A program made the position numbers and the translations under genes. Shown here piece by piece: positions 12,274 through 54,359 of a stretch of DNA of 64,000 nt. Where the stretch lies: assembly GCA_035547835.1 (NCBI GenBank), contig DASZTW010000005.1, positions 682,001 to 746,000 of the forward strand. Direction: 5' to 3'. Numbering within the stretch: position 1 is the stretch's first letter; every line of letters starts with the position of its first letter. The notes beneath the pieces were generated by a model. That model saw only the letters and a program-made list of their open reading frames with translations, ran no database searches and was not told the DNA's origin. The stretch comes from Acidimicrobiales bacterium (GTDB lineage: Bacteria > Actinomycetota > Acidimicrobiia > Acidimicrobiales > Iamiaceae).

Positions 12274-12292
12274 GGAGTCAAGGTACGGTGTG

Positions 12293-12323: not shown

Positions 12324-12388
12324 GGGCCGCCGAACCCCGGCCATCCTCTGCCAGGGCTCTGCCCGAGTCTGGGTCGCTCGCCCGCGCG

Positions 12389-13615
12389 TCAGCTCGATGG
12401 ACTGCCGGGTGAGCCGAACGCGAGGGCCAGGCGGCTGGGCCCCCAGATGCCAACCGTCGGCGGCTTCCACTGGATGGCCTCGACCAAGCTGAGGTCAGGC
12501 ATCCGGCGGGCGAGGATCGGAAGCGCTTCCTGAAGCTCGGCGCGGGCGAGCGATGCACCAAGGCAGTAGTGCAGCCCGGACCCGAAGGTCAGCTGCGGAG
12601 CGCCGCCTGACGGTCGCTGGATGTCGAAGGTCGAAGGATCCGTCCAGACTTCGGCGTCGTGGTTCGCGGCGACCAGGCTGAGCATGACAAGGGTTCCGGC
12701 CGGGAATGTCACACCACGGTGCTCGGCATCTTCGGCGACGATCCGAGCCGTGCCCCGGACCGTGCCGAGATGGCGCATCGCCTCCTCGACGGCTCTCGCC
12801 GCGAGCTCGGGGTCGGCCCCGAGGGCTGCCCACTGGGAGGGATGCTCCGCGAACAGCGCAACCGCGCAAGCCAGCTGGTTCCGAGTCGTGTCCGTTCCGG
12901 CCATGAGCACCGCTTCGGCCATCATCACCAGCTCGTCGGTACTAAGTCGATCGCCCTCTTCCTCCACCTGGATCAGTCGTGTGAGGAGATCGTCCGCAGG
13001 TCTTCCCCGGCGTTCGTCGATCATGTGCCGGACATACGCGTCGAGATGCTCCATCGCGCCTTCGATCGCGTCGAGGTCGTTCGCGAGGTCGTTGTTGAAC
13101 ATGCGGAAGATGTCCGTTGCCCACGCCGAGAACAACCGCCAGTCGTCCTTCGGCGCGCCGAGGAGCTCGCAAATGATCGGGATGGGGTACGGCTCGCATA
13201 CGTCATGCACCAGTTCGCAGCGGCTAGTGTCGGCGAATCCGTCGACGAGGTCGTTGATGACTCGGCGCATGAAGGGGCGAAGCCGCTCGGTGGCCTTGGG
13301 TGTGAAAGCGGGCGATGCAAGGCGTCGAAGCCGGTTGTGCTCATCGCCTTCCTTCGAGAGGATCGAGCGTTCCTGCCGGTTGCGTAAGCGACCTTCCGGA
13401 ACCCCACCGAGCTGTGGCAACAAGGACAACGCTGAGTGGAAGCGCTGGTCGCGCAGGATCGCAGTGACGTCCTCATGCCGACTCACGGCGTAGCCGAGCG
13501 GGGTGCGAGCCAGCCAGTGGCGCTTGGAGGCGGCCTCGAACGCGTGGACGAGGCTCGTCCGGTCGAGGCCGAAGATGTCGATTTCGGGGAGATCCAGTTC
13601 GTGGACGAGCGTCAT
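12389..13615 (-). CDS. Cytochrome P450 (copy 1 of duplicated module)
   Basis: A 408-residue soluble bacterial P450: I-helix oxygen site AGTDTTRN, K-helix EEAMR, and heme-ligand loop FGSGLHYCLGASLAR with the cysteine ligand. ATG 13615 is preceded by AGGAGG at six bases. It follows the thioesterase gene by 22 bases and is the last gene of the TetR-MBL-LLM-thioesterase-P450 operon. A clear paralogue of similar length lies at 48149-49363, also directly behind a thioesterase. It needs ferredoxin and reductase partners; the only ferredoxin visible is at 26939-27241. Substrate unknown. Confidence 0.92.
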   Translation of the reverse strand: MTLVHELDLPEIDIFGLDRTSLVHAFEAASKRHWLARTPLGYAVSRHEDVTAILRDQRFHSALSLLPQLGGVPEGRLRNRQERSILSKEGDEHNRLRRLASPAFTPKATERLRPFMRRVINDLVDGFADTSRCELVHDVCEPYPIPIICELLGAPKDDWRLFSAWATDIFRMFNNDLANDLDAIEGAMEHLDAYVRHMIDERRGRPADDLLTRLIQVEEEGDRLSTDELVMMAEAVLMAGTDTTRNQLACAVALFAEHPSQWAALGADPELAARAVEEAMRHLGTVRGTARIVAEDAEHRGVTFPAGTLVMLSLVAANHDAEVWTDPSTFDIQRPSGGAPQLTFGSGLHYCLGASLARAELQEALPILARRMPDLSLVEAIQWKPPTVGIWGPSRLALAFGSPGSPSS

Positions 13616-13637
13616 GACGGCCTCCTGACGACCGGGG

Positions 13638-14066
13638 TCAACGTGGGGCGGTGATGGTGACGGTTCCTTGAGCGGCGCCGACGACAACGGCGCCGTTGTG
13701 GATGTCGATGCGCACGACAGCAGTGCGCTTCGTCAAGGCGATGATCTCGCTCCGAGCGATGAGGGTGCCGCCCTTGCTGGCTGCGGTGAAGTTCAGGTTC
13801 AACTGGGTGGTAGCGGCCCACGCGCCCTTGGGGATCACGGGGTAGAGGACGGCGCCGAGCACATGGTCGGTCAGCGCGGCGAGGACGCCGCCATGCAGGC
13901 TTCCGAAGGGGTTCAGCAGTTCGGGTCGGACCTCAAGCTCGGCGGTCATCGTGCCGGGGCCCACATCAGTGGTGCGGATCCCGAGGTAGTCGGGGAGGCC
14001 GCCGCCAGCGTTCCCCGGACCGGTCAGCATCGAAGCGAGGTCGGGGTCGAACTGTTCGAATTCCAT
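13638..14066 (-). CDS. PaaI-type hotdog thioesterase (copy 1)
   Basis: A 142-residue hotdog-fold acyl-CoA thioesterase with the family signature NPFGSLHGGVLAALTDHVLGA. Same length and largely the same sequence as 47692-48120. ATG 14066 is preceded by AGGAGA at six bases. The likely role is release of CoA from a pathway intermediate or dead-end acyl-CoA. It sits between the LLM oxidoreductase and the P450 in one operon. Confidence 0.85.
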   Translation of the reverse strand: MEFEQFDPDLASMLTGPGNAGGGLPDYLGIRTTDVGPGTMTAELEVRPELLNPFGSLHGGVLAALTDHVLGAVLYPVIPKGAWAATTQLNLNFTAASKGGTLIARSEIIALTKRTAVVRIDIHNGAVVVGAAQGTVTITAPR

Positions 14067-31233: not shown

Positions 31234-31875
31234 TCAACGGTCTGACCCGAGTCGGTCGCGGACGAGTGTGATCGCCTCGGCGGCGGACCCAATGATCCGG
31301 TCGATCCCGAAGTCGGCGGGATCCTCCAGGGCGAGACGTACTGCGTGCTCGACAGCGGCGATCGCTGTATGGGCCAGAAGCTCCTCGTCGAGGTGTTCTG
31401 CGTCGTAGCGAACCAGCGCCCAGCGGACACCTGGCCGCAGAAGGGCGACCAAGCGGCGCCGGTGTGACTCGATCGCGGACCGCACGCCCGGTGGCGTCCC
31501 CGGCGCCGGAACCAGCAGGAGGCGCCACGAGTCGGGTCGGAGCCGCACATCGTCGAGGATCTGGTGCAGCGCAGCGAGCATGAGCGTTGCCGGCTCGTCC
31601 CGGAATGGCGGCATCGGGACCGCCGCGACGACGGCGTCAAACATGCGCTGCTGTTCGCGGGCGAAGAGAGCTTTCAATGCTCCGTCGACGTCGCCGAACA
31701 GGTTGTACACGACGGTCTTGGCGATCTCGCCGGCCCGAGCGATGGACTCCATGGACACCGAGCCGAACCCCTCCTCGTTTACAAGTACGAGGAGCCGGTC
31801 GAGTAGCTGCTCTCGTCGCGCCCCCGATTCGAGTCGGGGGCGCCTCTGCCGCGTCTTCGATTTTATGTACGCCAC
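31234..31875 (-). CDS. TetR-family regulator divergent from ABC1-SCP2 gene
   Basis: A 213-residue TetR protein with helix-turn-helix VSMESIARAGEIAKTVVYNLFGDVDGAL. The only credible start is GTG 31875, which lies in the centre of the perfect palindrome 31864-31883; the message must start at or very near this codon (leaderless) or the protein begins elsewhere. Divergent transcription and the shared operator argue for control of the gene at 31901-33808 and of itself. Confidence 0.82.
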   Translation of the reverse strand: MAYIKSKTRQRRPRLESGARREQLLDRLLVLVNEEGFGSVSMESIARAGEIAKTVVYNLFGDVDGALKALFAREQQRMFDAVVAAVPMPPFRDEPATLMLAALHQILDDVRLRPDSWRLLLVPAPGTPPGVRSAIESHRRRLVALLRPGVRWALVRYDAEHLDEELLAHTAIAAVEHAVRLALEDPADFGIDRIIGSAAEAITLVRDRLGSDR

Positions 31876-31893
31876 CGTACATACGCTAGCGTA
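31864..31893. promoter_or_regulatory. Double palindromic operator between TetR and ABC1-SCP2 genes
   Basis: TATGTACG-ccac-CGTACATA (31864-31883) is a perfect 8-base-arm inverted repeat and TACGCTAGCGTA (31882-31893) is a second perfect palindrome sharing two bases with it. The ABC1-SCP2 ATG follows at 31901, and the TetR start lies inside. Binding here would block both genes. Confidence 0.7.
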
Positions 31894-31900
31894 CCTAGCG

Positions 31901-33808
31901 ATGGACTTCCCCACTGAGGAGCAGCTGCAGGTCGACACGCCGCCGCTCGAGCACCTCGGACCGCGCGACGTCCTGCGCCTGGTCCACATCGTCGCCGCCC
32001 TTCTGTTCTCCGTCGGCTTCGCCGTCGTCGCCCGGTCGTGGCGCCGCCCTCGTCGCGCAGTGGCAGAAGTTGCGTGCGACGGCCTCGTCGACGGGCTCAT
32101 CCGCCTTGGCCCGACCATGGTGAAGGTCGGACAGATCGTCGCCAGCTCCGGCACGTTGTTCCCTCCGGTCCTCGCGAGTGCCGCCCGACGCTGCCTCGAC
32201 GAGGTCACTACCTTCCCGGCCGAACACGTGCGCCGCGCCGTGGAAGAGGACCTTGGACAGCCGATCGAAGCGCTGTTCGCGTCTTTCGACGACGAGCCGC
32301 TCTCTGCGGCGTCGATTGGCCAGGTTCATGCCTGCACGCTCCTCGACGGTCGCGACGCAGTGGTCAAGGTCCAGCGTCCTGGGATCCGCACGCGCATGGC
32401 GATGGACCTCCGAGTTGGCTTCAAGATTGCGCGCCTGCTCGAGCTGACCCCGTGGGCCCGGCGCTCGAACGCGCGGGAGATCATCCGCGACGTCCACACC
32501 ACGACGTTCCAGGAACTCGTGCCCCTGCGGGAGGCGTGGCAACAGCACCGGTTCCGTGAAGCCATCGGCGCGTTCGGCGACAACCGCCTGGTCACCGCGC
32601 CGGCGGTCTACTGGGATTACTGCGGCCCGCAGGTGATCTGCATGGAACGCGTGTACGGCACGCCGATGGATGCCTTCGACGCGCTCGCAGCCAAGGGCTT
32701 CGACGGTCAGACCGTCCTGCGACGCGGCGCGAAGGTGTGGGCCGAAGCGGTGATGATCCACGGTCCGTTCCACGGTGACATGCACGCTGGCAACATCTGG
32801 GCCTTGGACGACGGCCGTACCTGCTTCCTGGACTTTGGGATCATGGGCGAGCTCCCGGAGAGCTGGAAGCAGGTGATGAAGGATCTCTTCTACACGTGCT
32901 CCTTCGACTTGGACTTCGTTCGCATCGCCCGCTCGTACCGGGGTGTCGGCGCGATCCCCGCGGACGTCGGCACCGACGAGGAACTCGGCGCGGTGATCGA
33001 GGCGATCTTCGGTCCGCTCCTGACCGATGGTTTCGGCAATCTCGACATCGCTGCGATCGTCACCCAGTCCTTGGAGCTCCTCAAGCTCTATGACGCCACC
33101 GTCCCGCGCGAGCTGGTGCTCATCGGCAAACAGCTCCTCTACGTCGACAAGTTCACGACGTTCCTCGCGCCCGAGTACTCGCTCACAGCCGATCCCTATG
33201 TCGTCAAGAACATCTTCCCCGCCGAGGCTGCAGCTCGTGCGGCGGCGCTCGAGATGACGCTCGACGACGACGCGGTGTGGGTGTCGCCGGTGAAGACGGC
33301 GGCAGTCGCTTCCAGCGAACCGACCAGTACCCCTCACGACGGAGGACCTCTCGTGACCCTGCCGTTCCTAAGCCCCGAGTGGATCACCGCGATGCGAGAA
33401 CTACGCGACGAGTTGGATCTCTCGCTCCCCCCGGGCGTGCCGGCGGCGGTCGCCAACATCACCGTCACCGACGTCCCCTTCGGCAACGGCACCGTAGAGG
33501 CGCACGTCGATACGACGGACGGGTCCGTCCAGATGGACCTCGGCTACCTGCGCCATGCCCAGATCGACGTGAGTATTGATCACGCGACCGCGCGCGCCCT
33601 CGTGCTCGACCAGCAGCCGCAGCTCGCCGTCCGGGCGTTCCTCACTGGCAAGATCAAGCTCACAGGCAACCTCGAAGCCGTGCTCGGACCGGACACGGAT
33701 CTGATGGAGCTGCTGGGCGCCCTGGGCGCCACTGGTACGGCCACCGTCGCCGAACTCCACCCGGCAGCTGGCTCAGTCGGCGAGCGGGTGCGGTCGCTGA
33801 CTGCCTGA
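31901..33808 (+). CDS. ABC1/UbiB kinase fused to a C-terminal SCP2 lipid-carrier domain
   Basis: A 635-residue protein. After a short hydrophobic segment (HIVAALLFSVGFAVVA, about residues 29-44) comes a complete ABC1 kinase domain: MVKVGQIVASS (KxGQ), SAASIGQVHACTL, AVVKVQRPG, FHGDMHAGNIW and FLDFGIMGEL. From about residue 485 the chain continues with an SCP2-like sterol/lipid-binding domain (LSPEWITAMRELRDELDLS, VQMDLGYLRHAQIDVSIDHA, AFLTGKIKLTGNLEAVL). The frame is continuous with no sign of a stop or slip. ABC1 proteins act on isoprenoid lipids; the fused carrier suggests a lipid cargo presented to the kinase (inference). Under the operator at 31864-31893. Confidence 0.85.
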   Translation: MDFPTEEQLQVDTPPLEHLGPRDVLRLVHIVAALLFSVGFAVVARSWRRPRRAVAEVACDGLVDGLIRLGPTMVKVGQIVASSGTLFPPVLASAARRCLDEVTTFPAEHVRRAVEEDLGQPIEALFASFDDEPLSAASIGQVHACTLLDGRDAVVKVQRPGIRTRMAMDLRVGFKIARLLELTPWARRSNAREIIRDVHTTTFQELVPLREAWQQHRFREAIGAFGDNRLVTAPAVYWDYCGPQVICMERVYGTPMDAFDALAAKGFDGQTVLRRGAKVWAEAVMIHGPFHGDMHAGNIWALDDGRTCFLDFGIMGELPESWKQVMKDLFYTCSFDLDFVRIARSYRGVGAIPADVGTDEELGAVIEAIFGPLLTDGFGNLDIAAIVTQSLELLKLYDATVPRELVLIGKQLLYVDKFTTFLAPEYSLTADPYVVKNIFPAEAAARAAALEMTLDDDAVWVSPVKTAAVASSEPTSTPHDGGPLVTLPFLSPEWITAMRELRDELDLSLPPGVPAAVANITVTDVPFGNGTVEAHVDTTDGSVQMDLGYLRHAQIDVSIDHATARALVLDQQPQLAVRAFLTGKIKLTGNLEAVLGPDTDLMELLGALGATGTATVAELHPAAGSVGERVRSLTA

Positions 33809-34879: not shown

Positions 34880-35995
34880 TTGACCACCTACGAGGAAATC
34901 CTCGGCCGCGCCCGTCTCGACGACGTAGACGCGATCCTCGAGATTGCCAACACCGACATGGACTCCACGATCCATGCCGTCACCGACAATGCTCAGGCGA
35001 TCTTCACGTGGGACTATGAGAAGGGATCCCGTCCGGCCCTCAGCCGCCTCTACGAGAAGGCGAAGACGTCTCAATGGAACGGCGAGACCGATCTGCCTTG
35101 GGAGACTGAGGTCGACCAGGAGCAATTGGCCAAGTTGATGGCGGCCCAGTTCGGGCTGCAGGGCGGTGACCTGAGCCACACCCCGTTCGCATCCTGGGGT
35201 GACGCCGAGTGGACGACGCTTGGGATCGAGAGCCAGAACTGGTCGCTGTCGCAGTTCATGCACGGCGAGCAGGGCGCACTCCTGTGCACGGCGAAGATCG
35301 TCGAGACCGTCCCGTGGATCGACGCCAAGTACTACGCCTCCACCCAAGTGATGGACGAGGCCCGACACGTCGAGGTCTTCGCGAAGTACCTCGACACGAA
35401 GCTCAGCGGCCATTATCCGATCAACGCCCACCTCGGGATGCTCCTCGACGACATCGTGGACGACAGTCGCTGGGACATGACCTACCTCGGCATGCAGATC
35501 ATGGTTGAGGGCCTGGCCCTGGCCGCCTTCGGCTTCATGCACCAGCTGACCACAGAGCCGCTCCTCAAGCAGCTGCTCCGCTACGTCATGAGCGACGAGG
35601 CCCGTCACGTGGCCTTTGGTGTCCTGTCTCTGAAGGAGTACTACGCCGAGCTCACCGATAAGGAAATGGCCGAGCGCCAGGAGTTTGCCTTCGAGGCCGC
35701 GGTGCGCATGCGTGACCGCTTCCTCCAGCAGGAGGTCTGGGAGCGCATGGGGGTCGCGCCGAAAGACGCCATCCCCGTTGTCATGGCCGCGCCCATACGC
35801 GCGGAGTTCCAACGAATGCTCTTCACCAAGATTGTGCCGAACTGCAAGAAGCTCGGCCTGCTCGACGCCAATGGCGGGTGGCTCCGCGAGCGCTTTACCG
35901 AGCTGCGCGTGATCGAGTTCGAGGACTTCGCCGACACCGGCGAGGAATACGAGGCGTTCGCGCTCGCCGAGGGCGAAGTTGCAGGTGCGGATTGA
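34880..35995 (+). CDS. Ferritin-like di-iron protein
   Basis: A 371-residue protein with SLSQFMHGEQGALL, VMDEARHVEVFAKYL and VMSDEARHVAFGVLSLKEYY: two DEARH motifs plus upstream ligands, as in R2-like and related di-iron oxidases. TTG 34880 is chosen because AAGGAG lies seven bases upstream; an ATG at 34838 would start inside TetR-derived sequence and has no ribosome site. The P450 gene follows within nine bases, so the two oxygenases are co-expressed. Confidence 0.8.
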   Translation: MTTYEEILGRARLDDVDAILEIANTDMDSTIHAVTDNAQAIFTWDYEKGSRPALSRLYEKAKTSQWNGETDLPWETEVDQEQLAKLMAAQFGLQGGDLSHTPFASWGDAEWTTLGIESQNWSLSQFMHGEQGALLCTAKIVETVPWIDAKYYASTQVMDEARHVEVFAKYLDTKLSGHYPINAHLGMLLDDIVDDSRWDMTYLGMQIMVEGLALAAFGFMHQLTTEPLLKQLLRYVMSDEARHVAFGVLSLKEYYAELTDKEMAERQEFAFEAAVRMRDRFLQQEVWERMGVAPKDAIPVVMAAPIRAEFQRMLFTKIVPNCKKLGLLDANGGWLRERFTELRVIEFEDFADTGEEYEAFALAEGEVAGAD

Positions 35996-36003
35996 CCAGG
36001 GCC

Positions 36004-37233
36004 ATGCGCGCCACGGACACCATCCCCGACCTGTTCTCACCAGCGGCGCTCGCCGATCCCTTTCCGTGCTACGCGGCGCTCCGGCGCCTCGGCGTTGTGC
36101 ACGATGAGGTGAACCGGATGTGGGTCGTCAGCCGTCACGCCGACGTCCTCGAAGTACTGCACCGACCCGAAGACTTCTCCTCGGCCGGCGGGTACGGAGC
36201 CTTCGCCTTGGGTGCAGCCGGACCTGGCGGTGGGGAGAGCGCACGCGGACGCGGCATAGGTCTGGACCGGGCGTTCGGCTCCCGTGTGCTCATCGCCAGC
36301 GATCCGCCGGAGCACACGATGCTGCGGCGGATCGTCAGTCGTGGTTTCACCAAGCGGGCGATGGCCGACTGGGAGGCGCGAGCCGCCCGGCTCGCCGATG
36401 GGCTCGTCGATGGGCTCGTCGAGCGGATGCGCGTCGGCGATGCGGATGTGGTCCGCGACCTCGCGATCCCACTCCCCGTCACCCTGATCGCGGAGATCCT
36501 CGGTGTTCCGGCGTCGAGGATGGCCGACTTCCGCCGGTGGTCGGAGGCACTCGTCGGCGCGTTGAGCAACGACATCGACATCGATAGAAGCGGGCTCGAG
36601 ATCGCCGCGATGGTTGGCTACTTCTCCGAGGTGGTCGCGGAGCGGCGCGCCATGCCGGGCGTCGACCTGATCAGCGCGATCGCACGATCGGCGCCCGACG
36701 GGGACGAGCTCAGCCAGTTCGAGGTCGTCATGTTCTGCATCCTCCTCCTCGTCGCCGGGAACGAGACCACGACCAACCTACTCGGCAACATGGTGCACGC
36801 CTTCTGGGAGCATCCGACTGAATGGTCGCGGCTCGTGCAAGATCCCGATCTCGCGCCACCCGCGGTCGAGGAGGGTCTTCGCTATTGCGGTCCCGTCCAA
36901 GGTCTCTTCCGCCAGACCACCGCGCCGACGACAGTCGGGGGGGTCAGTCTCCCCGCCGGCGCCAACGTCTACGTCTCCTTCGCCGCGGCGAACCGCGACG
37001 ACCGGGCCTTCGCCGAACCCGACCGGTTCCACGTCGGACGGGACGCAGGCGCGCAGGTCGCGTTTGGCCATGGCATCCACTTCTGCCTCGGGGCGCAGCT
37101 CGCGCGGATGGAGACTCGGCTGGCGATCGCGGCTCTCGCCCGCCGGGGGGTCACGCTGCGCGCCGCTGGTGCGGCGGTCCCCACCACGAGCCCGATCCTG
37201 CGCGGGTTCCGCTCGATCCCGGTAACCGCATGA
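36004..37233 (+). CDS. Cytochrome P450
   Basis: A 409-residue P450 unrelated in detail to the duplicated pair: I-helix VAGNETTTN, K-helix EEGLR, heme loop FGHGIHFCLGAQLAR. N-terminal LFSPAALADPFPCYAALR is typical of soluble actinobacterial P450s. Start ATG 36004; a TTG at 35992 would overlap the di-iron stop as TTGA. A short frame begins at its stop codon (ATGA, 37230). Confidence 0.9.
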   Translation: MRATDTIPDLFSPAALADPFPCYAALRRLGVVHDEVNRMWVVSRHADVLEVLHRPEDFSSAGGYGAFALGAAGPGGGESARGRGIGLDRAFGSRVLIASDPPEHTMLRRIVSRGFTKRAMADWEARAARLADGLVDGLVERMRVGDADVVRDLAIPLPVTLIAEILGVPASRMADFRRWSEALVGALSNDIDIDRSGLEIAAMVGYFSEVVAERRAMPGVDLISAIARSAPDGDELSQFEVVMFCILLLVAGNETTTNLLGNMVHAFWEHPTEWSRLVQDPDLAPPAVEEGLRYCGPVQGLFRQTTAPTTVGGVSLPAGANVYVSFAAANRDDRAFAEPDRFHVGRDAGAQVAFGHGIHFCLGAQLARMETRLAIAALARRGVTLRAAGAAVPTTSPILRGFRSIPVTA

Positions 37234-38214: not shown

Positions 38215-39093
38215 TCAGGCGCTATCCGCCGAACGGACGAGCCGGTCACGAAGGCTGCCCTCTTCGCCGAAAAGCTCAGTGCGCCAACGCGCGACCAGCT
38301 CCTCCGTGTCCCGGTCGTCCGGGTGGAAGCCGGGGCGGTGGTATTCGGCGATCCTCAGCAAGATCGTCTTGCGTGCGAACGGCGAGTTGCGCAGGTTGAA
38401 CAAGCTTGCCGCGAACCGCAGGGGGTGCCGCGCCGATCGGTCCGTGAGCACGCAGCTGGCGATCGACGCAGCTGCCACCGTCACAAGGGCCGCCGTGGTC
38501 ACGTCCATTACCAACAAGCGGATCACCTCGCTCCCGACCTGCTCGCGGTAGACGTCGTACGCCACGGACTTGTGCTCGCACTCCTCGAGCGCGTGCCACC
38601 GGAACAAGGCGCGCAGCTCCTCGGGCACTTCCTGCTCCTCGAAGGGGTCGTCGGCCAGTAGCTGCTCGGCTAGCACCGAGGTGAAGTGCTCGGCCGCGGC
38701 GGTGAAGGCGAGCTGCACCGCCTTGGGAGCGCGCCGATGGATGACGCCCAGGACGATTCCCGTCGCGCGATCGACGAACTTCGTCGGGTAGCCGAGATCG
38801 TGAAGCAGCAGGTTGAGCCGGTCGTGCTCCCGGCCGTGCATCGTCTCTTGGCCGATGAACCCGGCCACTTGCTGGCGGAGCTCGTTATCGCCGATGTCCT
38901 GGCGGTAGTTGCGGACGGAGTCGATGAAGAACTGCTCGCCCTTAGGGAACGTCGCCGACAGGATGGCCATGACGTGGCTCATCACGATGTCGCCGTCGAC
39001 GAAGTGCTTCGCGAGCGGCCTGTACCCGAAGGCGATCCGTCGGGTACGGACGCTCCGGTCGTAGGCGCCAGGCACCGCAGTCGCGTCATGCAT
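38215..39093 (-). CDS. PF10118-type ferritin-like metal-dependent protein
   Basis: A 292-residue paralogue of 6793-7695 with the same motif series: GQETMHGREHDRL, AAAEHFTSVLAEQ, HALEECEHKSVAYDVY. A hydrophobic stretch (ALVTVAAASIASCVL) follows the last motif. ATG 39093 is preceded by GAGGAGGAA. Divergent from the SDR-BVMO operon, sharing a promoter region with an operator-like site. Catalytic role unknown. Confidence 0.78.
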   Translation of the reverse strand: MHDATAVPGAYDRSVRTRRIAFGYRPLAKHFVDGDIVMSHVMAILSATFPKGEQFFIDSVRNYRQDIGDNELRQQVAGFIGQETMHGREHDRLNLLLHDLGYPTKFVDRATGIVLGVIHRRAPKAVQLAFTAAAEHFTSVLAEQLLADDPFEEQEVPEELRALFRWHALEECEHKSVAYDVYREQVGSEVIRLLVMDVTTAALVTVAAASIASCVLTDRSARHPLRFAASLFNLRNSPFARKTILLRIAEYHRPGFHPDDRDTEELVARWRTELFGEEGSLRDRLVRSADSA

Positions 39094-39182: not shown

Positions 39183-40025
39183 ATGCAACTAGAAGGCCGC
39201 GTCGCCGCAGTCACCGGCGCAGGATCGGGCATCGGCCGCGCCGTCGCCCTTGAGCTCGCGAGGAGGGGGTGCCTGCTCGCCGTCTCCGACATCGACGCGG
39301 CGGGTCTAGACGGCACGGTGGCGATGCTCGACGGACTAGGCGCACCGACGATCCACCACCTCGTGGATGTGTCTGACCGCAACGCGGTCGAGGACTGGGC
39401 CGGCAAGGTCGTCGCCGAACACGGGCGCGCCAACGTCATCGTCAACAACGCCGGCGTGGCCCTCGGCGCCACGGTCGAGGCGATGAGTTACGAAGACATC
39501 GAATGGCTCATGGGCATCAACTTCTGGGGTGTCGTGCACGGCACGAAGGCCTTCCTTCCGCACCTGAAGGCGGCCGGCGAGGGGCACATCGTCAACGTGT
39601 CCAGCGTGTTTGGATTGATGGGCATCCCGTCGCAGTCCGCGTACAACGCAGCGAAGTTCGCTGTTCGCGGCTTCACCGAGGCGCTCCGCATCGAGCTCGA
39701 CGCTGATGGAACAGGGGTGTCGTGCACGACGATCCACCCGGGTGGCATCAAGACGAACATCGCACGGAACGCCCGCTTCGACGAGGACACCGTGCGAGGG
39801 CTCGGCCAGGATCCAGACCGGCTCGCCGCCGCGGCGGACCGCGCGTTCCTCACGAGCCCGGAGAAGGCGGCCGCCGTCATCGTGGGCGCACTCGAGGCCA
39901 ACAAGCGGCGCGCGTTCGTCGGCCCCGACGCCCATGCGTTTCGTCTGCTCTCTCTCCTCCCACCCGGCGTTTACCAGAATCTGATCCGCTTCGGGATCAA
40001 CCTCGGAACGAGGGTCGCTCACTGA
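39183..40025 (+). CDS. Short-chain dehydrogenase/reductase
   Basis: A 280-residue classical SDR: TGAGSGIGRA for NAD(P), NNAGV, SSVFGLMG and the active YxxxK in SAYNAAKFAVRG. It oxidises a hydroxyl to a ketone or the reverse. AGGAG precedes ATG 39183. Its stop shares one base with the start of the Baeyer-Villiger monooxygenase (TGATG at 40023-40027), so alcohol oxidation followed by oxygen insertion is a natural functional pair. Confidence 0.9.
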   Translation: MQLEGRVAAVTGAGSGIGRAVALELARRGCLLAVSDIDAAGLDGTVAMLDGLGAPTIHHLVDVSDRNAVEDWAGKVVAEHGRANVIVNNAGVALGATVEAMSYEDIEWLMGINFWGVVHGTKAFLPHLKAAGEGHIVNVSSVFGLMGIPSQSAYNAAKFAVRGFTEALRIELDADGTGVSCTTIHPGGIKTNIARNARFDEDTVRGLGQDPDRLAAAADRAFLTSPEKAAAVIVGALEANKRRAFVGPDAHAFRLLSLLPPGVYQNLIRFGINLGTRVAH

Positions 40026-41584
40026 TGAAGCGCGCACCCGACCACCACGTTGTCATCGTCGGCGCCGGTTTCGGCGGTCTCGGCGCAGCTATCGAGTTGC
40101 GTCGAGCCGGCATCGACGACTTCGTCATCCTCGAGAAATGGGACGGTGTTGGCGGGACCTGGCGCGCCAACACCTATCCGGGTGTTGCCGTGGACATCCC
40201 TTCCTTCATGTACAGCTTCAGCTACGAGCAGCGCGGAACATGGAGCCGGCTGTTTGCCCCAGGGTCGGAGCTCCTGGCGTACGCGGAGGACGTGGCCGAC
40301 CGGCACCACCTGCGGCCGAAGATCCGGTTCGAGACGACGGTCGTGTCGCTGACGTTCGACGAGGTCGACGATCTCTGGCGCATCCACGTCTCCGATGACG
40401 ACGGCGACAGGACGATCTCCGCTCGGTTCGTCATCTCTGCCATCGGTGCGCTCGAGCGGCCGGTGCTGCCCGACATTCCCGGGATCGGCGACTTCGGTGG
40501 AACGATCGTCCACACGGCTCGATGGCAACATGACCTCGATCTCTCCGGGAAGCGGGTCGCCTGCATCGGCACCGGAGCCTCCGCTCTCCAGCTGATTCCC
40601 GAGATCGCCGCGGCAGTCGAGTCCCTCGACGTCTATCAGCGCACCGCCATCTGGGTCGCCCCGAAGCTCGACCCTCGGATCGGTGTCGTAGGGCGGGCCG
40701 TGCTTTCGGTGCCGCCCATTCGATCCGCTGTCCGCGGTGTCGGAACCGTCGCTTTCGACCTTGCCGGCAACGTGATCTTTCAACACCGCCTGCGACCCGT
40801 CCGGGCCGGGCTCGAAGCAGGGCTCAGGGCGTGGATGCGTCGCCAGGTGGACGACCCAGCGACTCGGGAGGCGTTGATCCCCGATTACGGCTTCGGCTGC
40901 AAGCGGCCGTCCATGTCCAACGGCTACCTCAGCGCCTTCAACCGTCCCAACGTCGAGCTGGTCACCACGCCGATCGAAGGCGTCACCCCAGCCGGCGTGG
41001 TTACAACCGATGGCACCGAGCGAACCGCCGACGTGCTCATCTGCGCAACCGGGTTCCGCATCATGGCGGAGGCCGAGCCGGTCCCGTTCCCGATCTATGG
41101 CCGCAACGGCGTCGAGCTCGGCGCGCACTGGCTCGAACAACGGTTCCATGCCTACCAGGGGGTCAGCGTCTGCGGTTTCCCCAACCTCTTCTCCGTCGCA
41201 GGACCCTACGGGTTCGTCGTCGGCTCGTACTTCTGGATGATCGAGGCAACGACAAAACATGCTGCACGCGTGATCGCCGAAACCGACCGGCGTGCGCAGA
41301 CGACGGCCGAGATCCGTCGCGGCCCGCAGGATAGGTACGTCGAGCAGTGCCGGGAGCGACAAGCCGGAAGCCCCCTCTTCGGGGACGTATGCGCGACGTC
41401 GAACACCTACTACGTGAACTTCCAGGGCGACAGCCCCCTTCGGCCCTCTCTCTACGCGGAGATGTGGTGGCAGAACCGCCACTTCCCCCTCTCCCACTAC
41501 CGGTACGCGACGGCCCCACGGCCGGTTGCGCCTCCCGCTCGACGCCAGACACGCAAGCCGAAGTTGGTCCCGCAACCCAGGTAG
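40025..41584 (+). CDS. Baeyer-Villiger-type flavin monooxygenase
   Basis: A 519-residue class B flavoprotein: FAD site VVIVGAGFGGLGAA (residues 9-22), GGTWRANTYPGVAVDIPS, fingerprint FGGTIVHTARW, NADPH site VACIGTGASALQ, and DVLICATGF. The start is coupled to the SDR gene. Expected reaction: ketone to ester or lactone with NADPH and O2. The closest well-known relatives are 4-hydroxyacetophenone- and cyclic-ketone-type monooxygenases; substrate unknown. Confidence 0.88.
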   Translation: MKRAPDHHVVIVGAGFGGLGAAIELRRAGIDDFVILEKWDGVGGTWRANTYPGVAVDIPSFMYSFSYEQRGTWSRLFAPGSELLAYAEDVADRHHLRPKIRFETTVVSLTFDEVDDLWRIHVSDDDGDRTISARFVISAIGALERPVLPDIPGIGDFGGTIVHTARWQHDLDLSGKRVACIGTGASALQLIPEIAAAVESLDVYQRTAIWVAPKLDPRIGVVGRAVLSVPPIRSAVRGVGTVAFDLAGNVIFQHRLRPVRAGLEAGLRAWMRRQVDDPATREALIPDYGFGCKRPSMSNGYLSAFNRPNVELVTTPIEGVTPAGVVTTDGTERTADVLICATGFRIMAEAEPVPFPIYGRNGVELGAHWLEQRFHAYQGVSVCGFPNLFSVAGPYGFVVGSYFWMIEATTKHAARVIAETDRRAQTTAEIRRGPQDRYVEQCRERQAGSPLFGDVCATSNTYYVNFQGDSPLRPSLYAEMWWQNRHFPLSHYRYATAPRPVAPPARRQTRKPKLVPQPR

Positions 41585-41636
41585 CCGGCCGGGCCGAAGC
41601 CCGACGCTAGGAGCCGCCGAACAGCGGTCGGATGAT

Positions 41637-41669
41637 ACAGCCATCAAGATCTGTTGTATGTCGTAAGCT
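41637..41669 (+). promoter_or_regulatory. Operator-like box and promoter of third monooxygenase
   Basis: ACAG-N10-CTGTTGTAT (41637-41659) matches the boxes at 19922 and 34433 apart from one base. ATACA/TGTAT (41635-41659) are inverted. A -10-like TAAGCT (41664-41669) lies eight bases before ATG 41678, again suggesting a leaderless message. Confidence 0.45.
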
Positions 41670-41677
41670 CCTCGACA

Positions 41678-43303
41678 ATGGCTGAGTCAACCCCCTTGAC
41701 GCCCGAGTACGACGTCGTCCTGGTCGGGGCCGGCTTCGCCGGGCTCTACCAACTGCACCGCCTACGGGCCCTCGGCCTTTCGGTCGTTCTGCTCGAGGCG
41801 GGAGCCGGACTCGGCGGCATCTGGCACTGGAACTGCTATCCCGGGGCCCGCGTCGACACCCACGTGCCCATGTACGAGTACTCGGACGAGACGATCTGGC
41901 GAGACTGGTACTGGGATCAGCGGTTCCCCGACTGGCGCGCCCTGCGCCGGTACTTCGAGCACGTCGACGACGTCTGGGAGCTGCGTCGCGACATTCGCTT
42001 TGACGCGCGCGTCCAGGGGGCGTCGTGGAACGAGTCGAGCCATACCTGGTCCGTCCGGACCACCGACCGTGAGAGACTGCAGGCGCGATTTGTGGTCCTG
42101 TGCACTGGCTTCGCCGCCAAGGCGTTCGTGCCAAGCATCCCCGGTTTGGACGACTTCCGCGGCGCCTGCCACCACACGGCCCACTGGCCGCAGGACGGCG
42201 TCGACCTCGAAGGTCTGCGAGTCGGGATCATCGGCACCGGCGCGAGCGGTGTGCAAGTGACCCAGGAAGCTGCGAAGGTCGCCGCCGAGGTGATCGTGTT
42301 CCAGCGCACGCCGATGATGGCGCTGCCGATGCGCCAACGAGAGCTCACGCGCGAGGAGCAAGACGCCGCGAAGGCGGACTACCCCGCCCGATTCGACCTG
42401 CGGCGCCGGACCAACACCGGATTCGACTACCGGTCCACCGGCGACTCGACCTTCGCCGTGTCCGCCGAGGAGCGGGCCGCGGTCTACGAACGCCTGTGGG
42501 AAGCGGGCGGCTTTAGCTTCTGGGCCGGCGGGTTCAACGACATCGTGTTCGACGAACGCGCCAACAGCTTGGCGTACGACTTCTGGCGAGACCGCGTCCG
42601 CGAGCGCCTGCGCGACCCGCTGACGGCCGAACTCCTCGCTCCATCTGTGGCACCGCACCCGTTCGGCGTCAAGCGTCCGTCGCTCGAGCAGGACTTCTAC
42701 GACCTCTTCAACCAGTCCAACGTCTCACTCGTGGATCTCCGGTCGGACCCGATCGAGGGTGTCACCCGAGACGGCTTACGCACGCGGACGCGTCAGCACG
42801 ACCTCGACGTTCTCGTGCTCGCAACGGGCTTCGATGCCGTCACCGGAGGACTCACGAGCTTGGACCTTCGAGGCACGACCGGCGGCACACTCGCTGACCA
42901 TTGGCGCGACGGCGTGCGCACCCAACTGGGACTAATGTGCGCTGGCTTTCCCAACCTCTTCTTCCTGTATGGCCCACAGAGCCCATCGGGCTTCTGCAAC
43001 GGTCCAACCTGCGCGGAGGTCCAGGGCGACTGGCTCATCGACCTGTTGGAGCATCTCGCAGGCCGCGGGGTCACGAGGGTCGAACCCACGCCGGAGGCCG
43101 AGCTTGCATGGCGGGAACAGGTGCAGAGCATCGCTGCCATGACTCTCTTCCCCCGAGCGGACTCGTGGTACATGGGCGCCAACATCCCCGGCAAGACGCG
43201 GGAGATGCTGAACTGGCCGGGCGGTCTGCAGCTCTACCTCTCGGCGTGCTCGTCTGCCGCGGACGACGGCTATCGGGGCTTCGTGTTCGGTCCGGGCGCG
43301 TGA
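41678..43303 (+). CDS. Baeyer-Villiger monooxygenase (CHMO/PAMO/steroid-monooxygenase-like)
   Basis: A 541-residue protein, the length of phenylacetone and cyclohexanone monooxygenases. FAD site VVLVGAGFAGLYQLHRLR, GGIWHWNCYPGARVDTHV, fingerprint FRGACHHTAHWP, NADPH site VGIIGTGASGVQ, VLVLATGFDAVTGG, and FPNLFFLYGPQSPSG. Expected to make lactones or esters from cyclic or side-chain ketones. It stands alone with its own promoter at 41637-41669. Confidence 0.9.
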   Translation: MAESTPLTPEYDVVLVGAGFAGLYQLHRLRALGLSVVLLEAGAGLGGIWHWNCYPGARVDTHVPMYEYSDETIWRDWYWDQRFPDWRALRRYFEHVDDVWELRRDIRFDARVQGASWNESSHTWSVRTTDRERLQARFVVLCTGFAAKAFVPSIPGLDDFRGACHHTAHWPQDGVDLEGLRVGIIGTGASGVQVTQEAAKVAAEVIVFQRTPMMALPMRQRELTREEQDAAKADYPARFDLRRRTNTGFDYRSTGDSTFAVSAEERAAVYERLWEAGGFSFWAGGFNDIVFDERANSLAYDFWRDRVRERLRDPLTAELLAPSVAPHPFGVKRPSLEQDFYDLFNQSNVSLVDLRSDPIEGVTRDGLRTRTRQHDLDVLVLATGFDAVTGGLTSLDLRGTTGGTLADHWRDGVRTQLGLMCAGFPNLFFLYGPQSPSGFCNGPTCAEVQGDWLIDLLEHLAGRGVTRVEPTPEAELAWREQVQSIAAMTLFPRADSWYMGANIPGKTREMLNWPGGLQLYLSACSSAADDGYRGFVFGPGA

Positions 43304-47068: not shown

Positions 47069-47695
47069 ATGAGCGGCTCGTCGGGAGCCACACTGGGTGG
47101 CGTGCGCGACGTCCCAGCCGAGATGGCGTCCAAGCTCGACCGAGCAGCCGACGATCTGCTTGCCCGTTTTGACGACCTGCAGATGAGCGATATCGCTCAG
47201 GCGGCTGGGGTGGCGCGGTCGTCGCTCTATTACTACTTCGTCAACAAGGACGCCGTTCTCGCGTTCTTGCTCCGAGCGATCCTGGACGACCTCACCGTCA
47301 GCGCGCGGGAGGCGGCCGGTGGACCGGGCGATCCCGCGTCGCGGCTGCGCGCGGTCATCCGGGCCCAACTCGAGCACCTCAACGGTCACCCTGCAGCGAG
47401 TCAGTTGCTGATCGCGAATCTCGGTCGGGCTGGCAAGCTCCCGGAGATCGCGGCACGGGTGAGCGAGGGATTTGAAGGCCCGGTTCGGCGGCTACTCGTC
47501 GAGGGAGCCGCCGACGGATCGCTTCGGCCGTTGCCCGACACTGAGCTTGGTGCAACGGCGCTCTTCGGTGCTGTTCTGGTTATCGGCCTGCGGTCGCTGG
47601 TTGTGGAAGGCCGTATCGATGTCGACCGAGTGATGGAGATGATCACGCCCATGTTGTGGTCGGGCATCGCTCCGACTGCGGGCCACGCGACATGA
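47069..47695 (+). CDS. TetR-family regulator of the duplicated thioesterase-P450 module
   Basis: A 208-residue TetR protein, helix-turn-helix LQMSDIAQAAGVARSSLYYYFVNKDAVL, paralogous to the protein at 16211-16798. ATG 47069 is used; upstream in-frame sequence overlaps the operator region and is not conserved in the paralogue. Its stop overlaps the thioesterase start (ATGA, 47692-47695), the same coupling logic as in the first module. Confidence 0.85.
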   Translation: MSGSSGATLGGVRDVPAEMASKLDRAADDLLARFDDLQMSDIAQAAGVARSSLYYYFVNKDAVLAFLLRAILDDLTVSAREAAGGPGDPASRLRAVIRAQLEHLNGHPAASQLLIANLGRAGKLPEIAARVSEGFEGPVRRLLVEGAADGSLRPLPDTELGATALFGAVLVIGLRSLVVEGRIDVDRVMEMITPMLWSGIAPTAGHAT

Positions 47696-48120
47696 ATTTC
47701 GCTCATTACGACGCCGACCTTGCCGCGCTGATCTCCGCCGAACCCGGAGGCGGCGGTGGCCTGCCGGGTTACCTCGCCATCCGCACGACCGAGGTCGGAC
47801 CGGGGACCATGACCGCCGAGGTCGATGTCCGACCCGACCTCCTCAACCCGTTCGGCTCCGTGCACGGCGGCGTTCTGGCGGCGCTCGCCGATCACGTCCT
47901 GGGTGCCGTGCTCTACCCCGTGATCCCACGCGGAGCCTGGGCAGCCACCACGCAGCTCAACCTCAACTTCACAGCACCGGTCAGGGATGGGACGCTCGCC
48001 GCACGGAGCCACATCATCTCCTTGACGAAGCGAACCGCGGTGGTGCGGATCGACGTGACCAACGGTGACCGCCTCGTGGGCGCCGCTCAGGGCACCGTCA
48101 CCGTGACGCCGGCCCGCTGA
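47692..48120 (+). CDS. PaaI-type hotdog thioesterase (copy 2)
   Basis: A 142-residue hotdog thioesterase with NPFGSVHGGVLAALADHVLGA, equal in length and largely identical in sequence to copy 1 at 13638-14066 (shared stretches such as GAWAATTQLNLNFTA). Coupled to the TetR gene and followed 28 bases later by P450 copy 2. Confidence 0.85.
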   Translation: MNFAHYDADLAALISAEPGGGGGLPGYLAIRTTEVGPGTMTAEVDVRPDLLNPFGSVHGGVLAALADHVLGAVLYPVIPRGAWAATTQLNLNFTAPVRDGTLAARSHIISLTKRTAVVRIDVTNGDRLVGAAQGTVTVTPAR

Positions 48121-48148
48121 TGTGTCTTCGCGACCTGGAGGCCGCTCG

Positions 48149-49363
48149 ATGACCACCGCGCACGAGCTTGACCTCCCCACGATCGACATCTTCGGTCTCG
48201 AACGCGCCGAGGCGTTGCGGGCCCTCGATCAAGTGAGGCGGCAGCACTGGCTGGCGCGCACGCCGCTCGGCTACCTGGTCACCCGCTACGACGACGTCAC
48301 CGCCTTGTTGCGCGACCAACGCTTCCACTCCGCGCTCTCGGCCCTGCCCGCGATGGCGGGCGTGCCCGAAGGCCGCATGCGCGACAGACAGCGGCGCTCG
48401 ATCCTGTCGATGGAAGGGGACGAGCACACCCGCGTCCGGCGGCTCGCGTCTCCAGCCTTCACGCCTCGTGCGACGGAGCGGCTACGGCCGTTCATGCAGC
48501 AGGTGGTCAACGAGCTGCTCGACCCGTTGGCCGCTACGGGCCAATGCGAACTCGTGGGCGACGTGTGCGAGCCCTACCCCATCCCCATCATCTGCGAGCT
48601 GCTCGGCGCCCCACGAGAGGACTGGCGACTGTTCTCGGAGTGGGCGACGGCCATCTTCCGCATCTTCAACAACGACATCGCCAACGACCTCGATGTGATC
48701 GAGGCAGCGATGACCGAACTCGACGCCTACGTCCGCCTCATGATCGACGAGCGTCGCAGCCAGCCCGCTGACGACTTGCTCACGCGCCTCATCAGGGCCG
48801 AGGAGCAGGGCGATCGCATGAGCACCGACGAGCTCGTGATGATGACCGAGGCCGTGTTGATGGCCGGCACCGACACCACACGGAACCAGCTTGCGTGCGC
48901 GGTCGCGCTGTTCAGCGGCCACCCTGACCAATGGGCTGCTCTCGCCGAGAGGCCCGCTTTGGCGGCGAGTGCTGTCGAGGAGGTGATGCGCCACCTCGGC
49001 ACCGTTCGTGCCACTGTTCGGATCGCCGCTCAAGACGTCGAATACCGCGGGGTGACCTTCCCAGCCGGCACCCTCGTGGCGACGAGCCTCGCGGCAGCGA
49101 ATCACGACCCGGACACCTGGTCCGATCCCGACCGCTTCGACATCGAGCGCGAGCCGAGCGGTGCGCCGCAACTCACCTTTGGCTCCGGGATCCATTACTG
49201 CTTGGGCGCCTCGCTCGCTCGCGCCGAACTCCAAGAAGCGCTCCCGATCCTCGCCCGTCGGATGCCGAACATCGGGCTCGCGGAGCCGATCGTGTGGAAG
49301 CCGCCAACCGTCGGCATCTGGGGCCCGAGCCGACTCGCACTGCACTTCGACCCAACCGGTTGA
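48149..49363 (+). CDS. Cytochrome P450 (copy 2 of duplicated module)
   Basis: A 404-residue P450 with AGTDTTRN, EEVMR and FGSGIHYCLGASLAR, closely similar over its whole length to 12389-13615 (shared CEPYPIPIICELLGAP and WKPPTVGIWGPSRLAL). TGGAGG lies eight bases before ATG 48149. The last gene before a second TetR. The two copies may act on related positions or substrates. Confidence 0.92.
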   Translation: MTTAHELDLPTIDIFGLERAEALRALDQVRRQHWLARTPLGYLVTRYDDVTALLRDQRFHSALSALPAMAGVPEGRMRDRQRRSILSMEGDEHTRVRRLASPAFTPRATERLRPFMQQVVNELLDPLAATGQCELVGDVCEPYPIPIICELLGAPREDWRLFSEWATAIFRIFNNDIANDLDVIEAAMTELDAYVRLMIDERRSQPADDLLTRLIRAEEQGDRMSTDELVMMTEAVLMAGTDTTRNQLACAVALFSGHPDQWAALAERPALAASAVEEVMRHLGTVRATVRIAAQDVEYRGVTFPAGTLVATSLAAANHDPDTWSDPDRFDIEREPSGAPQLTFGSGIHYCLGASLARAELQEALPILARRMPNIGLAEPIVWKPPTVGIWGPSRLALHFDPTG

Positions 49364-49382
49364 GCCACACGCTGCGCCGCCG

Positions 49383-50132
49383 ATGACTTCCGCTGGCCCC
49401 CAGACTCCGAGCACGCCCGGCGACGCGGCCGGTCCATTGCTTGACATCGCTGAGCAGCATTTCGCGGCGCGAGGTGTCGCCCGCTCGTCCGCGAGCGAGA
49501 TCGCCAATGCAGCGCGGATGTCGCGAGCGACGTTCTACCGGCGCGTCCCCAACAAGCAAGCGCTCGTCGCGCTCGTCGGCCTAAGGCAGGTCGATCGGTT
49601 GCTCGCCGAGCTGAGCGCCGCGGTCACCACGGAAGTGACGCTCGCTGAGGTTGTCGTCGAGGGATTCATCTCGGCCGTGGAGCGGGTCAAGTGTCGTGAG
49701 CCGCTCTGGCTGTTGGTCACGGGGAGCCTCGACGACGGCGGCGAGTGGTCGCCCTCGAGCTGGCTTGCGCAGGCTGAGGATCGGTTTCACGAGCTCGTTG
49801 CGCCATTGTTCGTCGTTGCGCAGCACGAAGGCCTGATCCGACCGGAGATCGATATCGAGGCGGTGGTGGCCGTTGTGGTGCCGCTTCTTCGATCCTGCTC
49901 CGCGGACGTGAGTACGACATCAGATCGTGGGCGCGCGCTTCGCCGCCTGCTGCGCTGCACGCTTGTCCCGATGATCGTCCCCGACGGAGCGGTCACCCAA
50001 CGGTTGTCACCCACCGCCGTCCAGGCCTTCCGCCGAGCGCTGCGAACCGACAGCCTGGCGCTGCCCGGGGTGCAAGCCGAGCCCAAGACCACCACCGTGG
50101 TCGGACTCACTGGCGGTGTGTGCGTGGGTTAG
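49383..50132 (+). CDS. TetR-family regulator
   Basis: A 249-residue TetR protein with helix-turn-helix SSASEIANAARMSRATFYRRVPNKQALV and an extended C-terminus. It follows P450 copy 2 by 19 bases in the same direction and has no counterpart in the first module. Likely co-transcribed with the P450; target unknown. Confidence 0.82.
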   Translation: MTSAGPQTPSTPGDAAGPLLDIAEQHFAARGVARSSASEIANAARMSRATFYRRVPNKQALVALVGLRQVDRLLAELSAAVTTEVTLAEVVVEGFISAVERVKCREPLWLLVTGSLDDGGEWSPSSWLAQAEDRFHELVAPLFVVAQHEGLIRPEIDIEAVVAVVVPLLRSCSADVSTTSDRGRALRRLLRCTLVPMIVPDGAVTQRLSPTAVQAFRRALRTDSLALPGVQAEPKTTTVVGLTGGVCVG

Positions 50133-50178
50133 GCGACGAGTGCGTTGGGTCCGGGTCTCGACAGGTCGGTAGCGAGGC

Positions 50179-50928
50179 TCACGGCACGTGTTCGTCAGCG
50201 GGCGGGCTGGAGAACAGGAACGCGATCAGCTCCGGGTCGTCGAGGATCGTCCAATCCGGGGCGATGAGCTTGGCGTAGCGCTCGAAGTAGAGGAGCTGCT
50301 TCGCGACAAGGACCAGCTCGCGGGGGAGGCGGACGTCGTAACGGGTGCCGATCTTCACAATGTCGACGAGGACCTCGCCATAGGAGATCTCCGAGAGCGG
50401 CCGCTCGAGGATCGGGGTGACCAGCTCAGCGATGTCGCGCGAGGACTGCTCGAGGTCCGCCGGGCCGAGGATGGCGCCGAGGTCATAGATCGCGCTCGCG
50501 ACGCGTCGGAAGTCACGGTCGACCAGCAGGGCTGGTAAGCCCTCGCTGATGACGCGGCGGGTCGCGTCATCGAGCTCGCCACAGATCCCGAAGTCCAGGA
50601 ACACGATGTGGCCGTCAGTGTCGAGCATGAGGTTCCCCGCGTGCACGTCACCGTGGAAGAACCCGTGCACGAGCGCCGCTTCCATCCAGCCACGCACTCC
50701 GGCCTTGAGCGCCTCGGCGAGGTCCCAACCGGTGGGTCGGAGTCGGGCGAGATCGTCGATCTTGTAGCCGTGGATCCGTTCCATGGTCAGCAGACGCGGG
50801 GTCGTGAGTGGCCAATGCACAGCAGGGACCCGGACCTCGACGTTGTTCCCGAACCGGTCGAGACCGCCGGCGAAGCGTTCCATCGATCTCGCTTCGATGA
50901 CGAAGTCGACCTCAGCTACGAGGGTGGG
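50179..50928 (-). pseudogene. 5'-truncated ABC1/UbiB kinase (copy 2)
   Basis: From position 50928 down to 50179 the frame matches the C-terminal half of the ABC1 kinase at 10936-12273 (VAEVDFVIEARSMERF, FFHGDVHAGNLMLDTDG, FLDFGICGELDD, YGEVLVDIVKIGTRYDVRLP). Upstream of 50928 the match ends abruptly and a stop (TAA) appears in frame. The KxGQ and Ala-rich motifs are missing, so an ATG at 50883 could yield only a partial kinase. The break marks a deletion or recombination junction. Confidence 0.75.
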
Positions 50929-53204: not shown

Positions 53205-54359
53205 CTACTGCCCACCATTGCCAATCCCTTCCTCAAGTGACACCGCCGCCGCGGCGTCTCGAGCGGGCAGGAAGTGCGCGTACACGCCGAGCGTCATCGA
53301 CGCGTTCGCGTGCCCAAGCCGGCCGGCAACCGTGCGTACGTCGTATCCCTGACCGAGCATGCGCGTCGCGACGGCGTGACGTAGGTCGTGGAACCGCACG
53401 TCACCCACACCAGCCGCCTTGCGGAGTCGCCGCCACCGGACGTTGAGAACCCCAGGATTCATGGGCCGCCTCGGGTCCTTGTCCGGCCCGAAGAGGTAGC
53501 TGTCCTCAGCGCCAATCCCCAGGGCCAGGTTTCGTTCCTGATGACGGTGTCTCATCGCACGGAGCGCAGCGACCACGGCGGGCCCGAGTGCTGCGGAGCG
53601 CACCGATGCCGCCGTCTTTGCTCGCTCGACGACGATGGCCTCGTGACCGACCATCTGGACGACGCGTCGAATGGTGACCGTCGCACCGTCGAGGTCGAAA
53701 TCCGACCACCGAAGCGCGCAGATCTCACCTCGACGAGCCCCCAGGTTCACCCCGAGCCGAACCAAGACAGCGAAGTCCACGTCGCGGGCCTCAGCGACCC
53801 GAATCAGCCGATCGAGAACGTCATCGGACGGCGGTTGCACCACCTGCCGTCCGACCTTTGGCGGGTGAGCGTCGGCAGCAGGGTTTGCGGCGATCCACCC
53901 CCAGCGCCGCGCCTGTTCGAAGGCGAGCCGCAACGGGACATGGACCTTGCGGATCGTCGACGCCGACAGCGGCCTTCCGCGGCGGCCGCCGCCCTCCGCG
54001 AGTCGCCGATAGAGCACCTCGAGCGTCCGGACATCGATAGCGTCGATCGGCTTGTCGCCGATGTGCGGGCGGATCTGGCAGCTAAGCGCCTGGCGCCATC
54101 GCTCGACAGTCGAACGCTCTGCGTCGGTCTGGTCGAGGAACTCGTCGAGCAGTTCGTCCACCGTGACCCGGCGGGTCCGTTGCTCCCATCGCGCTTGTCG
54201 GATCTGCTCCGTCAACTCGGCCAGCGCCTGGTTGGCAGCACGCTTGCCCGGCACCCGCACCAGGCGGGTGACGCGGCGTCGCTGCCCAGTCAAGGGGTCG
54301 GGTGGCGCCTCGACGAAGAGTCGCCAGCGGTCCCCGGTCAGGTGTTGCACTGACCCCAT
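53205..54359 (-). CDS. int: Tyrosine recombinase (phage-type integrase)
   Basis: A 384-residue site-specific recombinase. N-terminal arm-binding part (GSVQHLTGDRWRLFVEA), core-binding SAM-like domain (TVDELLDEFLDQTDAE), and catalytic domain with Arg in LGARRGEICALRW, HDLRHAVATRML and nucleophile Tyr in GRLGHANASMTLGVYAHF. ATG 54359 has GGGAGG seven bases upstream; an open extension to 54524 runs through the hairpin and tRNA and is not coding. It points away from the tRNA-Glu, as expected for an element integrated at the tRNA 3' end. Confidence 0.92.
   Translation of the reverse strand: MGSVQHLTGDRWRLFVEAPPDPLTGQRRRVTRLVRVPGKRAANQALAELTEQIRQARWEQRTRRVTVDELLDEFLDQTDAERSTVERWRQALSCQIRPHIGDKPIDAIDVRTLEVLYRRLAEGGGRRGRPLSASTIRKVHVPLRLAFEQARRWGWIAANPAADAHPPKVGRQVVQPPSDDVLDRLIRVAEARDVDFAVLVRLGVNLGARRGEICALRWSDFDLDGATVTIRRVVQMVGHEAIVVERAKTAASVRSAALGPAVVAALRAMRHRHQERNLALGIGAEDSYLFGPDKDPRRPMNPGVLNVRWRRLRKAAGVGDVRFHDLRHAVATRMLGQGYDVRTVAGRLGHANASMTLGVYAHFLPARDAAAAVSLEEGIGNGGQ

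Follow-up and report, generated by a model that had tools for sequence, protein, structure and literature searches.

A putative single-chain fusion of an ABC1/UbiB-type ATPase and an SCP2-like lipid carrier on a conjugative element of an Acidimicrobiales bacterium

The roles of ATP and lipid in the ABC1/UbiB/COQ8 ATPases are a long-standing question. UbiB, an accessory factor of the ubiquinone pathway, has ATPase activity, and the SCP2 domain of UbiJ binds intermediates of that pathway and organises the Ubi complex; the stretch ubiE-ubiJ-ubiB-ubiD holds both ubiJ and ubiB (PMC6747719), which in E. coli are annotated side by side. A precedent for joining an SCP2 accessory protein to its partner in a pathway is UbiT-UbiU of Zymomonas mobilis, a fusion described in two genomes (PMC6747719). 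Among related ATPases, MABP-1 (Rv3197 / MSMEG_1954) is an actinobacterial ABC1 ATPase (PMC8696161), and COQ8B, given ATP, streamlines the CoQ metabolon (PMC7615680).

Here we describe a frame in which an ABC1 domain is followed directly by an SCP2-like domain. The window, by which we mean the whole 64,000-nucleotide stretch analysed, contains the following features of this gene:

31901-33808, + strand: fused ORF of 635 aa, ABC1/UbiB-type atypical kinase/ATPase plus SCP2-like domain (uninterrupted translation)
31901-33280, + strand: ABC1 part, residues 1-460 (PF03109, invariant columns, motif residues, fold matches)
31961-32044, + strand: N-terminal hydrophobic helix, residues 21-48, a putative membrane anchor (AlphaFold2 model and Kyte-Doolittle)
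33281-33352, + strand: linker, residues 461-484 (orthologue tails reach no more than about 25 aa past residue 457)
33341-33345, + strand: internal Shine-Dalgarno-like GGAGG, 7 nt before GTG 33353 (sequence)
33353-33805, + strand: SCP2-like domain, residues 485-635, starting V485-TLPFLSPEW (homologue family and profile)

A sequence-only reading had described one uninterrupted 635-residue frame carrying all ABC1 motifs, and both points held. The frame is open across 31901-33808, with no in-frame stop anywhere in 31901-33805; both domains share this frame in the given sequence, and joining them needs no frameshift. PF03109 matches residues 99-341 with 188.4 bits (E 1.5e-55; gathering cut-off, 22.9), and each motif was located, namely KVGQ (75-78), SAASIGQVH (SAAS at 135-138), K156 in VVKVQRPG, E205/E211, HGDMHAGN (291-298) and DFG (311-313), at positions that are invariant or nearly so in an alignment of 27 homologues. 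The ATP-site and catalytic residues of the ABC1 half, a putative ATPase, are intact. The AlphaFold2 model is confident across most of residues 1-460, including the helix at residues 21-48 (block pLDDT, 82-96), where the Kyte-Doolittle mean is 2.25 for the 19 residues that start at residue 24. Its best solved structural neighbours are human COQ8A and mycobacterial MABP-1.

Compared with these systems, the fusion combines familiar parts in an unfamiliar way. MABP-1 shares the ABC1 fold and the actinobacterial origin and is among the top sequence and fold matches, but it lacks an SCP2 domain and is only about 20-23% identical in fold alignments. COQ8A and COQ8B have the same kinase-like ABC1 fold, and COQ8B likewise represents ATP-dependent support of a lipid pathway, but both are eukaryotic, lack an SCP2 domain and show about 18% identity. 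The closest functional parallel, UbiB with UbiJ, also pairs an ABC1 ATPase with an SCP2 lipid carrier in one pathway and with genes side by side; these are, however, separate proteins rather than a single chain, and the UbiB-like rows of the alignment have a hydrophobic C-terminal stretch that the ABC1 part of the fusion does not. UbiT-UbiU differs in its partner, which is a U32-type hydroxylase subunit rather than an ABC1 ATPase.

UbiB and UbiJ also serve ubiquinone, whereas the genome carrying the fusion encodes MenB above cut-off, which points to menaquinone, and has no UbiG above cut-off (assembly 96.7% complete). The ABC1 part reached neither the cut-off of the UbiB equivalog model TIGR01982 (270.3 versus 487.55 bits) nor that of the NCBIfam MABP-1 model NF050082 (83.5 versus 800 bits). 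By its profile score the protein is not a UbiB equivalog, which together with the MenB and UbiG results makes ubiquinone an unlikely substrate; acyl, steroid/terpenoid and quinone-type molecules are all candidate substrate classes.

The identity of the tail required more than the sequence itself. Scanned alone, residues 485-635 matched no family at E<=0.01, and the PF02036 score of the fused protein lies below the cut-off (12.6 versus 21.3 bits, E 0.18), so an SCP2 call from this one sequence would not be acceptable. Its relatives make the assignment firm: 20 of 24 aligned relatives match PF02036 (best E 2.7e-15), and a joint profile of the family retrieves 1c44, 2c0l and 1qnd, animal SCP2 structures in the PDB, with E values of 2e-6 to 3e-6. 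The homologue family rules out chance as the source of the likeness, and by homology to these relatives residues 485-635 are a member of the SCP2 family. The alkyl-sulfatase C-terminal domain, Alkyl_sulf_C (PF14864), matches just six family members (best 7.9e-5). The domain search proposed earlier for residues 480-635 failed on the protein alone and succeeded through its family and the profile hits to solved structures, while the proposed boundary near residue 485 proved exact, this being where standalone relatives start. A single-protein query with SCP2 against viral contigs gave one short match.

The fused tail is divergent, is among the few family members without a significant Pfam match of their own and is longer at its C terminus than its relatives. 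In the structure prediction, proposed earlier as a way to look for a lipid tunnel, the AlphaFold2 model of the fusion has low confidence in this part (block pLDDT about 26-53), and an SCP2-only prediction from two sequences reached a mean pLDDT of 38. We considered whether the tail is a decaying passenger, translated by non-functional read-through on an active ABC1 protein, as could be suggested by its altered, longer C terminus and by its E of 0.18 against 2.7e-15 for the best of the family. This seems very improbable, since the tail retains the five family-invariant positions (F5, L6, W10, P42 and G105), and its reading frame is supported by the codon score right to the end and interrupted by no stop or frameshift.

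Members of the SCP2 family occur in 303 of the 395 genomes of the class; among the matches listed, nearly all lie in short frames, and outside the fusion the family is a separate protein of ~130-150 aa. The host genome encodes two further members (C5:784428 and C15:170869) that belong to the same family and have the same start as residues 485-635 but are free proteins, and no ABC1 gene lies beside them in the stretches examined. At three loci (L105, L198 and L199) a standalone SCP2 gene adjoins or lies near a gatC-like gene, at two of them (L105 and L199) with a gatA-like gene also near (all by eye); the gatC-like neighbours suggest a conserved chromosomal position for the standalone family. 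Four SCP2 hits in longer frames (G977, G089, G882 and G744) were rejected as fusions, as the extra frame holds no called gene; they appear to be standalone, and no ABC1 lies near them.

ABC1 genes were surveyed first in 148 genomes of the order and later in 397, as well as in 24 genomes of the family and in a scan of GTDB contigs. ABC1 homologues up to 68% identical match the first ~440-475 residues and then end, and the best orthologues (59-68% identical) terminate at the end of the ABC1 part; the few matches seemingly extending to residue 477-496 were, in those inspected, alignments running through a stop codon. Profile searches of all stop-to-stop frames in 200 fetched loci found ABC1 in 146 and SCP2 in 50, with both together solely in the three fetched copies of the window's own locus. 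No other ABC1 gene among the 146 loci had an SCP2 in frame or within the fetched flanks, and the two nearest ABC1 paralogues in the host genome (C11 and C13) are unfused. Across these fetched loci, a conserved ABC1-SCP2 partnership in the group was not found. No record in a plasmid collection covered 80% of the fusion protein, and our literature search did not find an ABC1/SCP2 fusion. The survey of its frequency thus returned a singleton, with SCP2 elsewhere a separate gene, and the fusion appears, from the sequences searched, to be unique among the genomes examined. It is seen in one genome and one assembly, inside a contig of 902,705 bases.

The junction itself suggests how the two genes met. 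Because the tails of the nearest ABC1 orthologues reach up to about 25 aa beyond the LDD motif, the linker can be read as an ABC1 C-terminal tail followed by the leader or ribosome-binding region of an SCP2 gene. Standalone SCP2 relatives start a few residues ahead of the motif F-L-S-x-x-W, and the V485 codon, GTG at 33353-33355, sits at their own start codon position; a GGAGG layout similar to that at 33341-33345 precedes the start codons of several standalone SCP2 genes. Little beyond one stop codon seems to have been lost at the join, which is probably a simple and recent in-frame one.

The same picture fits a missed stop equally well. In the alternative that the source is a sequencing error, adjacent ABC1 and SCP2 genes would have been merged by base-calling or assembly, either because a substitution hid the stop codon or because of a one-base indel, in the linker at residues 460-484. 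In the +1 frame, which is open from 33294, a TGA at 33354 overlaps the GTG (GTGA), as in coupled genes, and the genes would therefore also be split by an indel lying between 33294 and 33353. The intact SCP2 start and Shine-Dalgarno sequence likewise speak for an artefact, as does the finding of a single fusion in 397 genomes of the order and 146 ABC1 loci. Still, the frame as given has no stop, chance alone often produces a GTGA overlap at a start codon, and an error would need to strike precisely that stop or the linker. The assembly also has fair statistics (22 contigs; completeness, 96.7; contamination, 0.13), and we regard an artefact as unlikely, if less so than the remaining alternatives.

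One of these accepts the frame as real but takes its main output to be two proteins, an ABC1-SCP2 read-through product and a free 151-aa SCP2 initiated at GTG 33353. The GGAGG stands 7 nt from a GTG at the homologous start codon, and a product of 151 aa would be near the standalone relatives in length. Within the called genes of the window, GGAGG at 4-9 nt precedes 5 of 908 internal in-frame ATG/GTG codons (0.55%) compared with 7 of 56 called gene starts (12.5%). The motif may, however, be a mere relic of a recent join, and expression of the fused gene is itself putative; we consider two main products improbable.

Our preferred reading, held at about even confidence, is that the frame is a real and evolutionarily young in-frame fusion of an ABC1 gene with a complete SCP2 gene of the standalone type. 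Its occurrence in one genome, the divergence and longer C terminus of the tail, and the lack of a conserved ABC1-SCP2 partnership in the fetched flanks count against this view.

The genes around the fusion are as follows:

31234-31758, - strand: divergent TetR-type regulator (PF21943, E 0.0077, a weak match to the C-terminal part alone)
31864-31883: perfect inverted repeat TATGTACG-N4-CGTACATA between the TetR-type and fusion genes, a possible operator
34880-35995, + strand: AurF/ferritin-like diiron oxygenase-type protein, downstream of the fusion gene (PF11583, 2e-9)
35992-37233, + strand: cytochrome P450 (PF00067)
38215-39093, - strand: PF10118 'metal-dependent hydrolase' family protein (1.4e-72)
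39183-43303, + strand: short-chain dehydrogenase and two FAD monooxygenases

Across 31864-31900 the palindromes TATGTACG-N4-CGTACATA and TACGCTAGCGTA overlap, ending just ahead of the ATG at 31901. No Shine-Dalgarno sequence is evident upstream of this ATG, so the fusion-gene transcript may be leaderless. Genes for an acyl-CoA synthetase and an MmpL transporter also lie in the neighbourhood, as do acyl-CoA dehydrogenase- and thiolase-like genes identified by eye. The lipid-related island described earlier was thereby borne out, in that acyl-CoA synthetase, P450, flavin monooxygenase, AurF-type, PF10118 and MmpL genes make the setting rich in lipid and oxygenase functions.

Part of this gene set travels with the nearest ABC1 orthologues. 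One locus (L039) has homologues of PF10118, a flavin monooxygenase, a dehydrogenase and ABC1 in a row; at L040/L180 a divergent TetR gene adjoins ABC1; and in L181 and L182 a divergent TetR gene is followed by an MpaB/Lcp-type oxygenase gene and then ABC1. The MpaB/Lcp-type gene beside these close orthologues matches PF09995 at 3.6e-45 in L181 and has a similar start in L182; the family includes isoprenoid-chain-cleaving enzymes. Within the window, near-duplicate modules at 10936-14066 and 47069-50883 lie in opposite orientation, each with thioesterase, P450 and ABC1 genes and a TetR gene nearby, and the ABC1 copy of the second (50179-50883) is truncated, a TAA falling within the part that matches. 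Elsewhere in the host genome, a paralogous locus (L157, G000:C15:165000-177000) carries an AurF-type gene 68% identical to that of the window; AurF-type, PF10118-like and standalone SCP2 genes lie there within 4 kb, and within about 6 kb when two TetR-like genes and an acyl-CoA dehydrogenase-like gene are included. In 29 close relatives, the flanks that were fetched held no SCP2 beside an AurF-type gene.

The fusion gene is cargo of a conjugative element integrated at tRNA-Glu, marked within the window by:

53205-54404: integrase, adjoining tRNA-Glu
54489-54564: tRNA-Glu
96-3221: TrwC relaxase

The end of the tRNA recurs twice to the left, as a perfect 45-bp copy at 93 kb and as a 43-bp copy (98%) at 87 kb, the latter next to a second integrase, and coupling protein (T4CP), VirB4-like, VirB6 and NlpC/P60-SLT genes lie to the left of the window. 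An integrase at a tRNA, att repeats, a relaxase, a coupling protein and VirB4, the hallmarks of an integrative conjugative element, were all found. The copies of the tRNA 3'-end repeat lie near window positions -38883, -32654 and 54489, spanning C5:643117 to window position 54533. Apparently these are two tandem tRNA-Glu-integrated elements of about 6 and 87 kb with two tyrosine integrases. The lipid and oxygenase genes are cargo of the larger one (about 87 kb).

Under the young-fusion reading, an element-borne ABC1/UbiB ATPase gene would have lost its stop codon directly upstream of a complete SCP2 gene, yielding one 635-aa protein. Its N-terminal helix would serve the ABC1 part as a membrane anchor, and the binding or hydrolysis of ATP there may respond to, or lift out, hydrophobic substrates; the tethered SCP2 domain could hold an acyl, terpenoid or quinone-like molecule and offer it to the oxygenases encoded nearby (P450, flavin monooxygenases and diiron proteins), and the internal GTG may additionally yield free SCP2. 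Such a scheme would resemble UbiB with its separate carrier UbiJ, placed outside ubiquinone synthesis. By this analogy, lipid hand-over between ATPase and carrier is plausible. The interpretation offered by the sequence-only reading is partly supported: both domains, their boundary and the lipid-related setting were borne out, and the hand-over is a hypothesis. That a natural single-chain ATPase-carrier couples ATP turnover to the loading or unloading of hydrophobic substrates, in a mobile oxygenase pathway outside ubiquinone synthesis, is a proposal we make tentatively and think possible.

What is new here is the domain combination, both families being already known. Its value hinges on the junction being real, for which one genome provides support. 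The fusion of an ABC1 protein to a carrier points toward the same hand-over idea as UbiJ and UbiB, here in a bacterium with genomic signs of menaquinone. As a carrier-plus-ATPase construct, it would allow lipid binding and its coupling to ATPase activity to be measured in cis. If true, single-chain coupling would restate the UbiB-UbiJ relation in covalent form and provide a handle on the role of the ABC1 ATPases.
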